A DNA stretch of 64,000 nucleotides, taken from the NCBI GenBank assembly GCA_002256935.1, contig NCGL01000002.1:1-64000 (forward strand), given 5' to 3'. The first letter of the stretch is position 1, and every line of letters begins with the position of its first letter. This document shows, one piece after another, positions 996-43,081 of this stretch. The notes under the pieces were generated by a model. It did no database searches and was not told the DNA's origin. It saw nothing but the letters and a program-made list of their open reading frames with translations. The DNA is from Bdellovibrio sp. 28-41-41. Lineage in GTDB: Bacteria; Bdellovibrionota; Bdellovibrionia; Bdellovibrionales; Bdellovibrionaceae. The position numbers were made by a program, and so were the translations under genes.

Positions 996-1705
996 TCGAT
1001 TCGTATTTAAAATTTTCACCTGATCTTATTATTGAAGCGACCTCGGTTTGTGATCGAATTTGTCCTGGCTGTTATGCGCCAAATGTTGTTTCTAAGGAAA
1101 GTGCTGAAAAACTTTTACTAGAAAAGCCAGAATTGTTTATTGATCAAAAAACACTGTTGGAACTGTTTTCAAATTTATTCAGTGATGGAAAACCAAAATT
1201 AGGACTTGTATCAATCCGTGGCGGCGAGCCGACTAGACATCCCCACCTGGCTTCAATTGTCGAAGTAGCTTCTAAATTTTCAGAAAATGTCTTCATTGAA
1301 ACTCATGGCCGATGGATTTTAAAGCCAGAGGCATTCAACCAATCGTTGTTAGAAGTATGTAAAATGACCGGCGCTACCATAAAATTGTCATTTGATAAAA
1401 TGCACGGCGGAGATTCTATGCCGCTTCAAGAAATTACAGACTATCTTGAAAAAAATAATATCAATTTTATTATCGCAATTACGGAGCATACGGAATCCGA
1501 GTTTTTTATGTCCCGAACTCTATGCGGCTGGATTCCTGATAAAAATATTATTTTTCAAAAGAAAAGTCGTTCGGCTGATGATTTGATAAAGCCTACTATT
1601 GGTGTTGTTAAGGTTAATGGCACATTCTCGCAAAGTTTAAATTCTAGAATTTCTTTTCAGTCCCCAGCGAATTCAGCCAGAAATAGCTCTGAGGTAGTGG
1701 CATGA
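992..1705 (+). CDS. Short radical SAM protein
   Basis: A 237-residue protein with the radical SAM cluster motif C-x3-C-x2-C (Cys20, Cys24, Cys27 in CDRICPGC) near the N-terminus and the SAM-binding GGEP motif near residue 75 (RGGEPTRHPHL). It is shorter than most radical SAM enzymes and has no C-terminal SPASM-type cysteine cluster, so it looks like a core domain only. The substrate is unknown and no precursor peptide is visible next to it. ATG 992 overlaps the EamA stop and follows a GTGAGG ribosome site; an upstream in-frame TTG at 959 is unlikely. The next gene starts inside its last codons (1702). Confidence 0.75.
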   Translation: MIDSYLKFSPDLIIEATSVCDRICPGCYAPNVVSKESAEKLLLEKPELFIDQKTLLELFSNLFSDGKPKLGLVSIRGGEPTRHPHLASIVEVASKFSENVFIETHGRWILKPEAFNQSLLEVCKMTGATIKLSFDKMHGGDSMPLQEITDYLEKNNINFIIAITEHTESEFFMSRTLCGWIPDKNIIFQKKSRSADDLIKPTIGVVKVNGTFSQSLNSRISFQSPANSARNSSEVVA

Positions 1706-8143: not shown

Positions 8144-8210
8144 TCAGCTAAGTAAATCGTAAATTGGTGGGATGGGCAGGATTTTTTAACTTTCAACAAT
8201 GGAGATTTAT

Positions 8211-8549: not shown

Positions 8550-8851
8550 ATAAAAAGGCCATCTTTATGGTGCTGATGGCAGCCATTGGTGTGCTTATGA
8601 TTTTTTGTCCAGAACTGGCGCTCGCGCAGTTTTCGGGCGGTGGTTTTGAGTCAAAAGTCCAAGGGGTAACAAATGGCCTTATCACATTTTTGTTACCAGC
8701 GGCGAGTGTGATCGGTCTTGTCTATGCGGCAATTTTAGCCGCAACAGGTGATGCCTCCGCGAAACAGAGAATGATTTTAGTAGCCGTTACTTCCCTCATC
8801 GGGATGCTGGCCCCTCTGATCATTCGCTGGATTCAAGGGATGGCGATGTGA
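8546..8851 (+). CDS. VirB2/TrbC-like pilin
   Basis: A 101-residue protein with the standard T4SS pilin layout: a long signal peptide ending ELALAQ|F near residue 29, a short Gly-rich region and two hydrophobic helices (about 47-66 and 76-93) separated by the loop TGDASAKQRM. Length and topology match VirB2/TrbC subunits, which form the conjugative pilus. GTG start, preceded by TGGAGG and overlapping the upstream stop. The order pilin, VirB3, VirB4 supports the call. Confidence 0.8.
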   Translation: MNKKAIFMVLMAAIGVLMIFCPELALAQFSGGGFESKVQGVTNGLITFLLPAASVIGLVYAAILAATGDASAKQRMILVAVTSLIGMLAPLIIRWIQGMAM

Positions 8852-39793: not shown

Positions 39794-40918
39794 ATGGATT
39801 TATCAATTTCATTAGAAGAAAAAACGCTCGTCCGTCGTTTAGATTGGAATATTATTTTAGTTATCTTGGCCTTGAATGTAATTGGCCTGATCAATCTTTA
39901 CAGTGCGACTCATGGACCGAATTCGAAAGAAGTGGAATCGCTATTTATCAATCAGATCGTTTGGTTGATTTCGGGCTGGAGTATCTTTTTCATTTCTACG
40001 CTTTTAGATTATGCGATCGTCTCGAGAATCTGTTACATCATCTACTTTTTCAACTTGCTCGCCATCTTGTACGTGGATTTCTTTGGTAAGATTGCTCTAG
40101 GCGCCCAGCGCTGGATCGATTTCGGCTTCTTCCGCTACCAACCGTCCGAGACGATGAAGCTCGCGTTGATTATGTTAATGGCAAAAGTACTATCGCAAAG
40201 AAACTCAATGGGCCAAGGCATGGGCATTAGAGAATTGATAGCGCCTCTGATATTAGTATTGATCCCGTTCGCACTGATCATGAAGCAACCCGATTTGGGA
40301 ACAGCAATGATGATCATAGCGATCAGCGGTTCGATGATCTTGTTCACGAAAGTGAAAAAACACATAATCGTCGGCGCGATTGTATTGATCTCGATCTCTT
40401 TGCCAATCGCATGGGAATACATTCTACATGATTACCAAAAAAATCGGGTATTAACGTTCTTATCCCCAGAAAACGATCCCAGAAAAACAGGCTACAATGC
40501 TTTGCAATCAAGATACGCGGTAGGTTCCGGTCAATTCTTCGGCAAAGGTTTCCGCAAGGGAACACAATCGCAATTAGAATTCTTACCAGAGCGTCACACT
40601 GACTTTATCTACTCGGTGCTGAGCGAAGAACATGGTTTTGTTGGCAGTATTACGACGATTGGTTTGTTCTGTATTCTGTTCTTCTTGGTACTTAGGATTG
40701 CGTATCAAGCACGGGATAAGTTCGGCGCTCTGATTGCGGTCGGGGTGCTCAGTTATATCTTCTGGCATATGTTTGTGAATGTCGGAATGGTTATTGGTTT
40801 GCTTCCCATCGTGGGGGTTCCTCTGCCGCTGCTCTCTTATGGTGGGTCGAGTATGTTGACTACGATGCTTGGTCTTGGGCTGATCTCTAGCGTTTCCTTC
40901 CGTCGCTATTTATTCTAA
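39794..40918 (+). CDS. rodA: RodA peptidoglycan glycosyltransferase (SEDS)
   Basis: A 374-residue SEDS protein with about ten helices. Conserved segments are FQPSE-like RYQPSETMKLALI near residue 115, the PDLGTAMM segment near 165, the loop sequence LPERHTDFIYSVLSEEHGFVG near 275 with its catalytic-region acidic residues, and VPLPLLSYGGSSML near the C-terminus. It polymerises lipid II together with PBP2, encoded immediately upstream. Confidence 0.95.
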   Translation: MDLSISLEEKTLVRRLDWNIILVILALNVIGLINLYSATHGPNSKEVESLFINQIVWLISGWSIFFISTLLDYAIVSRICYIIYFFNLLAILYVDFFGKIALGAQRWIDFGFFRYQPSETMKLALIMLMAKVLSQRNSMGQGMGIRELIAPLILVLIPFALIMKQPDLGTAMMIIAISGSMILFTKVKKHIIVGAIVLISISLPIAWEYILHDYQKNRVLTFLSPENDPRKTGYNALQSRYAVGSGQFFGKGFRKGTQSQLEFLPERHTDFIYSVLSEEHGFVGSITTIGLFCILFFLVLRIAYQARDKFGALIAVGVLSYIFWHMFVNVGMVIGLLPIVGVPLPLLSYGGSSMLTTMLGLGLISSVSFRRYLF

Positions 40919-40938: not shown

Positions 40939-40959
40939 CCCCGAAGTTTCTTTTCGGGG
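40939..40959 (+). terminator. Hairpin after rodA, probable terminator
   Basis: CCCCGAA (40939-40945) and TTCGGGG (40953-40959) form a 7-base stem with a 7-base loop, 21 bases after the rodA stop. The following sequence is T/C-rich (ATTGAACTTCTTTC) rather than a pure T tract, so termination efficiency is uncertain. Confidence 0.55.
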
Positions 40960-41199
40960 ATTGAACTTCTTTCTTCTAAATCTAGTTCTGGGTTGAACCG
41001 GGGATCTTCCTTTTGGGAGTTCTGTTTTTAGAGACATAAAAAAAGCCTGACTAGCCGCCCGCCGACAGTCCTCGCCGCGCGCCTTGCGCCGGCTGCGGAA
41101 CTCATTTTTTTCATGTCTCTAAAAACAGAACTCCCAAAAGGAAGACCGAGCTTGAATCGAAGATTTAGAAGAATGAAGTCCAATCCCTCAAAAGAAAAT
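40946..41199. repeat. Large palindromic unit 1
   Basis: An inner perfect inverted repeat of 33 bases (41005-41037 with 41113-41145) encloses seven A residues, a GC-rich core (41045-41104) and seven T residues. Outer arms also pair: 40960-40983 with 41161-41184 match at 22 of 24 positions. The unit lies between rodA and the small exported-protein gene. Its core carries the 18-base sequence GAGTTCCGCAGCCGGCGC on the minus strand (41086-41103), shared with unit 2. Possible roles are a bidirectional terminator, a structured RNA or one end of a mobile unit. Confidence 0.85.
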
Positions 41200-41329
41200 T
41201 TTACCCACGCCGCAGCCGTTTTTTTGCTTTTCATCGGCGGCTGGTCGAGGTCCCGGGGGCATTTTTTCTAGACGTCCCTATAGTGTGAATCTGCAGAGAA
41301 ATTGATAGAATAATAGAACGGAGGGTCGC

Positions 41330-41611
41330 ATGAGAAATCTAATTATTTTATCAACCCTACTTCTATCGATAAACACGTTCGCAATAGCCGAACGATGTCC
41401 GTCACTAAAATCCATTCGAATGAAAATGGAAACGATAGCGTCCAACATCGCCAATACTAATACGACTCGCACACCTGAAGGCGGACCGTATAAGCCGAAA
41501 CAAATAAAATGTAAAAATAAAAACTGCGAAATAAAAGAAATCGCAGACACACAGAAAAAATACGAAGCCGCATTAGAAAATTGCAAGAGATCAACTTCCG
41601 CACGCAGATAA
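41330..41611 (+). CDS. Small exported protein with FlgC-like rod motif
   Basis: A 93-residue protein with a signal peptide (MRNLIILSTLLLSINTF, cleavage near AIA|E at residue 20). Residues 30-54 contain RMKMETIASNIANTNTTR followed by TPEGGPYKP. This is very close to the N-terminal signature of the flagellar rod protein FlgC (SNIANxNTTRTPEGGPY). FlgC itself has no Sec signal peptide and is about 140 residues long. Four cysteines in the mature part (23, 61, 66, 85) suggest disulfides. GGAGGG lies six bases upstream of the ATG. The gene is isolated between two palindromic units; its function is unknown. Confidence 0.75.
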   Translation: MRNLIILSTLLLSINTFAIAERCPSLKSIRMKMETIASNIANTNTTRTPEGGPYKPKQIKCKNKNCEIKEIADTQKKYEAALENCKRSTSARR

Positions 41612-41693
41612 ACTAAACGCAACTCCGCGCCAATAACAGCCCCGCGACGAAAAGAAAAAAAACAGGCTGCGGCGCGGGTGAACTTTTTTTTGT

Positions 41694-41910
41694 AGTGACG
41701 GAACGTCGTTCTTAATTCGCGCAATTCAAGCTCAGTCTTTCTTTTGAGGGATTTCTTTTAAAGACATGAAAAAAACGAGTTCCGCAGCCGGCGCGAAGCG
41801 CTCGGCGAGGACTGCCGAGGCTTTTTTTATGTCTTTAAAAGAAATCCCTCAAAAGAAAGATCCCCGCCTCACCTCTGAACAAAGCGAATTAAGAACGACG
41901 TTCCGTCACT
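41694..41910. repeat. Large palindromic unit 2, inverted relative to unit 1
   Basis: Inner perfect arms of 32 bases (41736-41767 with 41829-41860) and outer perfect arms of 27 bases (41694-41720 with 41884-41910). The loop has seven A residues, a GC-rich core and seven T residues; the core has GAGTTCCGCAGCCGGCGC on the + strand (41777-41794). Within it CTCGGC/GCCGAG (41801-41806, 41814-41819) followed by T7 forms a good intrinsic terminator for + strand transcription. The unit sits between two convergent genes and so could serve both. Confidence 0.85.
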
Positions 41911-41947: not shown

Positions 41948-43081
41948 TTATTTGCCCGGATTAATCTTAGTAACCTCAGAAACAATAGTTCCGATCTTAA
42001 TACTAGATTCAATTCGCAAGATATACTTACGATCATCATCACTTAGCCAGAAGTAAATATCACCAATCGGTTTAAAGATCCCCTTAACCGTGATCTCGGG
42101 CTTAATAACGATAGCGTTAAATTCCCCAACTTCTGTGTCGATTTTTTCTTTACGAATCGCTTTACCGCGGAACACGATGTTTTCTCCAGCATCAGCTACG
42201 CGGAATGAATACTCTTTGCCGACTTCCCATTTGAACAAACGCATATAGAACGCAGCACTGTATACGTTTTGCGAGAAGGGCGGGATTTCCCATTCTTTTC
42301 TTTGCTCTTCTTCACCATTCTTTTTAGTAAATTTCTTTTCCCAGTAGGTCGCCTTGTTATTCTGAATATCGAATAAACCTTTAGCGTCTTTGATTTGACC
42401 CGATTCTTTTACTGCTAATGTGAAAACGTGAGGAACAAATTGCAAAAAATCTACGTACGTTGTTGCTATATCTTTTACGCTATAAAAAGATGAAAACATG
42501 CTCGAAGATTCAAGTTCTGTCGTGAAAGTGTATGACTTGCGGCCGTTCACTTCGACGAAAGGACCCACTTTTAATTTTAACTCACCGGCTGCCACTTTAA
42601 AATAATGAAGCTCATGTAAGACTTCCTCACCAACGCGGAAAGGGTCTTTGACTGGTCGTCGTCCCGACATACCGTCTTTGTCTTCAATTTCTGGTTCCGC
42701 CGCAGGAGGAACCTCTGCTTTGGCCGCGGCTTCTTCAGCTGCTTTTTTCTCGGCGGCTTTTTCAGCTTTGGTTTTTTTTGTTTTCTTAGTTTTTACCGCT
42801 TTCGCTTTTTCTACTTTGATTTTATCTGTGACATCTTTATCAGAAGGCTTCGCCGAATCTTTCGAAGTGTTTGTGTAAAGTGGTCCTGATGGAATATCGG
42901 CTATTTCTGGAGAACTGTCTGGTAATTCTTTAATTACGACTTTGGCATCGAATTCGGTGTTCTTTTTAAATTCTTCTTCTCTTTTATCAAGTTTCAAAAA
43001 TGAAGACGTGCAACCACTTAAAAAGTAGGTGGAAAATAAAAGTATTAGGTAGATAGGTGCTAATCGAATCACTGACTCCAT
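41948..43081 (-). CDS. DUF3108 lipoprotein
   Basis: A 377-residue lipoprotein with lipobox LSGC (Cys24). Residues 80-135 are a low-complexity Lys/Ala/Glu-rich linker (KTKKTKAEKAAEKKAAEEAA). The C-terminal DUF3108 domain runs from about 145 (EEVLHELHYFKVAAGELKLKV; FGLFDI-like region; PEITVKGIFKPIGDIYFWLS). DUF3108 proteins are periplasmic or outer-membrane proteins of unknown function, often near envelope genes. This is the last gene of a minus-strand lipid A/outer-membrane cluster. Confidence 0.75.
   Translation of the reverse strand: MESVIRLAPIYLILLFSTYFLSGCTSSFLKLDKREEEFKKNTEFDAKVVIKELPDSSPEIADIPSGPLYTNTSKDSAKPSDKDVTDKIKVEKAKAVKTKKTKKTKAEKAAEKKAAEEAAAKAEVPPAAEPEIEDKDGMSGRRPVKDPFRVGEEVLHELHYFKVAAGELKLKVGPFVEVNGRKSYTFTTELESSSMFSSFYSVKDIATTYVDFLQFVPHVFTLAVKESGQIKDAKGLFDIQNNKATYWEKKFTKKNGEEEQRKEWEIPPFSQNVYSAAFYMRLFKWEVGKEYSFRVADAGENIVFRGKAIRKEKIDTEVGEFNAIVIKPEITVKGIFKPIGDIYFWLSDDDRKYILRIESSIKIGTIVSEVTKINPGK

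Follow-up and report, generated by a model that had tools for sequence, protein, structure and literature searches.

Two palindromes of a Bdellovibrionaceae genome (G000, contig C143), identified in a stretch of 64,000 nucleotides referred to here as the window, have been confirmed as members of a family of hairpin repeats dispersed in Bdellovibrionales and Bdellovibrionota. All copies of the family have in common a conserved core at the apex, YTCRRA-CAGTCCTCGC...GCTGCGGAACTC, borne on long arms that vary from locus to locus. The arms are specific to the locus and complementary within it, the changes in them are mostly mirrored, their mismatches lack the G.U bias of RNA, and some of the copies have the core in inverted orientation. 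Template switching at the level of DNA fits this combination better than compensatory selection on RNA or simple terminators.

The two units are nested palindromes of opposite orientation, situated between the converging rodA and DUF3108 genes (Table 1). Their perfect arms (inner arms of 33 bp and 32 bp, and outer arms of 27 bp in unit 2), as claimed in the first-pass annotation of this DNA, are confirmed by the sequence and by a repeat search. The approximately seven differing positions and one indel which it described between the inner arms of units 1 and 2 are likewise present, each with its mirror image in the opposite arm. No other inverted repeats of the 64-kb window have perfect arms of at least 20 bp and a loop of at most 150. 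Unit 1 has a predicted folding energy of -128 kcal/mol, compared to -71 +/- 5 for shuffled sequences (z = -10.7), and unit 2 is matched by the covariance model of the core at 41763-41833 of the minus strand (E-value 8e-9).

Table 1. Positions of the two palindromic units and of the adjoining genes in the window
Feature	Position	Strand	Remarks
rodA	39794-40918	+	unit 1 lies downstream
Unit 1 outer left arm	40944-40983	+	88% complementary to partner 41161-41200 (repeat search)
Unit 1 left unpaired conserved segment GTTCTGGGTTGAACCGGGG	40985-41003	+	common to copies of the genus, as judged on L002, L003, L006, L025, L026, L022 and L023
Unit 1 inner left arm	41005-41037	+	33/33 complementary to 41113-41145
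Unit 1 A7-core-T7	41038-41111	+	A7 41038-41044, T7 41105-41111
Unit 1 conserved core CAGTCCTC...GCTGCGGAACTC	41066-41103	+	between the A7 and T7 tracts
Unit 1 inner right arm	41113-41145	+	perfect partner of 41005-41037
Unit 1 right unpaired conserved segment CCGAGCTTGAATCG	41146-41159	+	common to copies of either core type
Unit 1 outer right arm	41161-41200	+	partner of 40944-40983
Unit 1 conserved outer right end TTTACCCACGCCGCAGCCGTTTTTTTG	41200-41226	+	recurs beside other copies of the genus
Unit 2 outer arm	41694-41720	-	27/27 complementary to 41884-41910
Unit 2 inner arm	41736-41767	-	32/32 complementary to 41829-41860
Unit 2 A6-core-T7	41769-41828	-	conserved core 41777-41814, minus strand
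Unit 2 inner arm, other side	41829-41860	-	partner of 41736-41767
Unit 2 outer arm, other side	41884-41910	-	partner of 41694-41720
DUF3108 gene	41948-43081	-	unit 2 lies downstream

An ORF of 93 residues (41330-41611, plus strand) is situated between the two units. It has an apparent signal peptide and a flagellar rod motif (PF00460, E-value 5e-5) but does not resemble a rod protein in other respects. Pairs of copies whose cores converge have been identified at four loci, namely L216 (1201-1300, plus strand, and 1516-1614, minus strand), L199, L176 and the window.

The first-pass annotation knew of no family with this architecture, and the searches made here agree. In a comparison with Rfam 15, a tRNA is the sole match above the gathering score in the window, with none for the palindromes, and the ten related loci searched give only the neighbouring tRNA and tmRNA genes. 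No earlier description of the hairpin family was found in the open literature, to which the search was confined, subscription literature being outside it. Searching the source genome and its relatives for the core, as the annotation had proposed, revealed the dispersed Bdellovibrionales family: far from there being no further copies anywhere, the case which the annotation had held would count against its reading, further copies were found by DNA search in the source genome, which has at least 10 copies, and many in its relatives. The core CAGTCCTC...GCTGCGGAACTC recurs across the order with unrelated arms. A covariance model of the core, which itself favours paired arms so that copies devoid of arms are possibly under-counted, has matches in 59 of the 141 Bdellovibrionales genomes (E<=0.01) and in 58 of 369 genomes of the phylum (E<=0.001). 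Six genomes of the phylum outside Bdellovibrionales also match the model, and genomes with a match contain 1 to 26 of them. The exact core pattern is found in 13 of the 141 genomes and a reversed control pattern in none of the 141. The A7 and T7 tracts, which the annotation had taken as the frame of the architecture, are present in some lineages only; the asymmetric core itself is the defining part.

A second core type, CCGGTTGGCTACGCCAACAATACCGCATCCATGCGG, has been identified on the same scaffold in this genus (L022, L023, L046, L049, L009, L032 and L041). One of these copies, L009, lies at the rodA locus of UBA2351, where the window has the first type. Carriage by phages was considered and rejected, as the five exact pattern matches in viral contigs are all without arms and look like chance occurrences. 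An assembly artefact is also unlikely, given that mirrored differences are seen between orthologues from several independent genomes, some of them assembled as a single contig.

The relation between core and arms is clearest among the 12 copies of a single genome, G113. The cores share a mean identity of 0.92 (range 84-100%), whereas the arms of different copies are only 0.31 identical, which is the chance level, and the two arms within a copy are about 0.95 complementary. Two of these copies, L281 and L286, have identical cores of 64 nt and unrelated arms. Identical cores with unrelated arms imply that the arms are not carried along with the core and have not merely drifted, and that local sequence has given rise to them or overwritten them. 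Drift of the arms after insertion is thereby ruled out as their sole cause. In two copies (L033 and L054) the left arm enters the 3' end of a tRNA gene confirmed by Rfam, and the right arm repeats it in inverted orientation. The left arm of L028 similarly overlaps the last 30 nt or so of the upstream coding sequence, whose translated tail looks TatC-like by eye, and here too the right arm is an inverted copy.

The covariation analysis of copies suggested in the first-pass annotation was carried out on 78 aligned copies. Standard pairs occupy 92.0% of the cells compared to 62.7% after shuffling, and both sides have changed in 479 cells compared to 139. The alignment was fitted to the structure and the pairing count leans that way, but a shift of the partner by one column reduces the pairing to about 44%. 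All four Watson-Crick types are found at every arm position, and G.U accounts for about 2.4% of the arm cells.

Orthologous copies permit the rate of change to be compared with that of 4-fold degenerate sites. Among orthologues of G040, G043 and G010 the identity at 4-fold degenerate sites is 0.74-0.85, that of the arms ranges from 29/40 to 40/40 and that of the core is 92-100%; divergence of the arms is thus similar to that of the 4-fold sites, and the core is almost constant. Changes in the orthologous arms comprise 35 mirrored, 20 one-sided and 2 other in 380 columns, in comparisons that share genomes and are not independent. Against free drift of homogenised arms stand the 20 one-sided changes, by which homogenisation is incomplete, and a change of the arms at L212 and L216 that is faster than simple drift. 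At these two loci nearly all of the arm sequence has been exchanged, in mirror image, beside well conserved flanks. At the L203 locus the left arm has been lost in one genome and new small palindromes have been gained. The core is inverted between copies L234 and L235 of G028, and in G060 relative to G040 at the L212 locus.

Covariation of this extent would ordinarily suggest a functional RNA hairpin at the 3' ends of transcripts, acting as a terminator or as a block to exonucleases, with stems kept by compensatory selection. The strong predicted fold of unit 1 and the terminator-like patterns which the A/T tracts give beside the core in the window are consistent with it, as is the location of 28 of 66 copies between convergent genes (p=0.002 compared to 25%, with rough gene calls from ORF length). 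The arms also often start near the stop codon of the upstream gene, again on rough gene calls from ORFs. As a general account of the family we nevertheless consider it unlikely. G.U is the mismatch expected to be favoured when RNA evolves by compensation, but the arm mismatches of 60 non-orthologous copies comprise 46 G.U, 51 A.C and 109 others, with no excess of G.U (p=0.69). The arms drift at about the rate of 4-fold sites and not more slowly, the orientation of the core flips between copies, and 16 of the 66 copies lie between divergent genes and another 8 run antisense to tandem genes.

The family resembles intrinsic terminators in its GC-rich hairpin, its frequent position 3' of genes and, in this genus and G026, its A/T tracts. 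It is unlike them in having arms several times longer than needed and in the occurrence of about a quarter of its copies between divergent genes. A T-tract directly follows the GC-rich hairpin in the window and in G026 and is missing from most other copies, including most of those outside this genus. An RNA role is possible for some copies, including that of a bidirectional terminator in the window, where A/T tracts flank the core. Of the two causes which the first-pass annotation had offered for the mirrored changes, selection for a long duplex and conversion within the hairpin, it is conversion that the tests favour, since G.U is not in excess, the arms remain paired while drifting at about the rate of 4-fold sites, and some copies have an inverted core. 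Strong covariation thus need not imply a selected RNA, and arm mismatches considered together with neutral drift point to DNA.

We consider it probable that a short core has been multiplied, that the arms are made at each site by fold-back copying and are later homogenised, and that the core is sometimes inverted. The part conserved and multiplied would be the short asymmetric apical core, and the long arms would not travel with it except, in certain lineages, for a short inner portion. At each site the adjacent DNA would be copied in inverted orientation to give the arms, most likely by fold-back synthesis, in which the core forms a hairpin in single-stranded DNA at the replication fork and the synthesis switches template. 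The same template switching could later copy one arm onto the other, so that the sequence drifts freely with complementarity kept, and may sometimes invert the core. A perfect stem can arise from a single template switch (PMC8794818), and homogenisation of the arms and inversion of the spacer are described outcomes of switching between inverted repeats (PMC8604942). Both, the former in the shape of mirrored changes, have been observed in the present family. It shares with quasipalindrome correction and template-switch mutation the one-step mirrored multi-base changes, perfect stems and spacer inversion (PMC8794818, PMC8604942, PMC7202029). Such mutations are known as sporadic and local events, whereas the present family has one conserved core, present at many loci, with such stems at each. 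The family constitutes a natural record, across many loci and species, of the growth of hairpins and the homogenisation of their arms by copying of DNA.

Persistence of the arms could have been allowed by loss of the hairpin nuclease SbcCD; this step, like the origin of the arms by template switching, is inferred. SbcD was detected in 11 of the 141 genomes, which all belong to one family (f10: G085-G096 and G035), and was undetected in every genome bearing the element (Fisher p=0.003, uncorrected for relatedness). Family f10 is devoid of copies of the element. The pattern fits a permissive background, the single family perhaps representing one evolutionary event. In a sample too small for the purpose (464 kb compared to 376 kb), long inverted repeats were not clearly more frequent overall in genomes devoid of SbcD. 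An order mostly without detectable SbcD offers a lineage for the study of long palindromes.

The manner in which the core spreads has been considered with respect to known mobile repeats. REP, BIME and REPIN sequences with their RAYT proteins are, like the present family, dispersed extragenic palindromes of bacteria (PMC3116915). REPs conserve the stem, whereas this family conserves the tip and has a stem unique to each locus, and the link of REP/RAYT with Y1_Tnp is not seen here. It is improbable that the family consists of non-autonomous, REP-like elements mobilised by a Y1 (RAYT) transposase, with arms that simply diverged by drift once inserted. The dispersal of palindromic copies, their varying presence or absence between relatives and the abundance of RAYT-type genes in the order would agree with it, but no Y1 transposase was detected in 15 of the 59 element-bearing genomes (association Fisher p=0.20) and drift since dispersal cannot explain identical-core copies with unrelated arms.

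Some mobile elements prefer hairpins, and the core might have inserted into the loops of pre-existing palindromes. We regard this as very improbable: perfect inverted repeats of at least 20 bp are very rare in the sampled genomes (0-3 per 100 kb), and essentially every copy detected, by a model favouring paired arms, is long-armed, some arms overlapping the ends of tRNA or coding sequences. Copies are present or absent at the fadA, L212 and L216 loci with junctions that are not clean. A recent insertion matched by a clean empty site did not come to light, the candidates (L011, L012, G044, G050, G046 and G056) being in relatives too diverged for the junction to be read. Interlocus conversion of the core among old copies could mimic its recent spread. 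We tentatively suggest, as a reading that may well not hold, a hitherto undescribed kind of mobile DNA in which a self-spreading hairpin core of 36-70 nt has its arms built from the target by fold-back synthesis in an order mostly without SbcCD, that is, a repeat with arms derived from its target.

Likenesses to two further systems may be mentioned. The target hairpin of diversity-generating retroelements has a conserved loop and a replaceable stem, as has the present family, which is however intergenic and of many copies. The double-hairpin elements of fungal mitochondria are also mobile-looking with compensatory changes in their stems and occur in a different host.

A copy has also been identified just downstream of the tmRNA gene at L190 in G316 (tmRNA 828-1177, core hairpin 1201-1259). 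Other long-armed hairpins with unrelated cores are situated downstream of rodA in other relatives (L015, about 8600-8710, and L016, about 8160-8210), which suggests that more hairpin families grow arms in the order. In G113, the outer arm ends of L287, L239 and L240 have in common a sequence similar to AAAAAGGTGCCTGACACTT, perhaps a different palindromic repeat.
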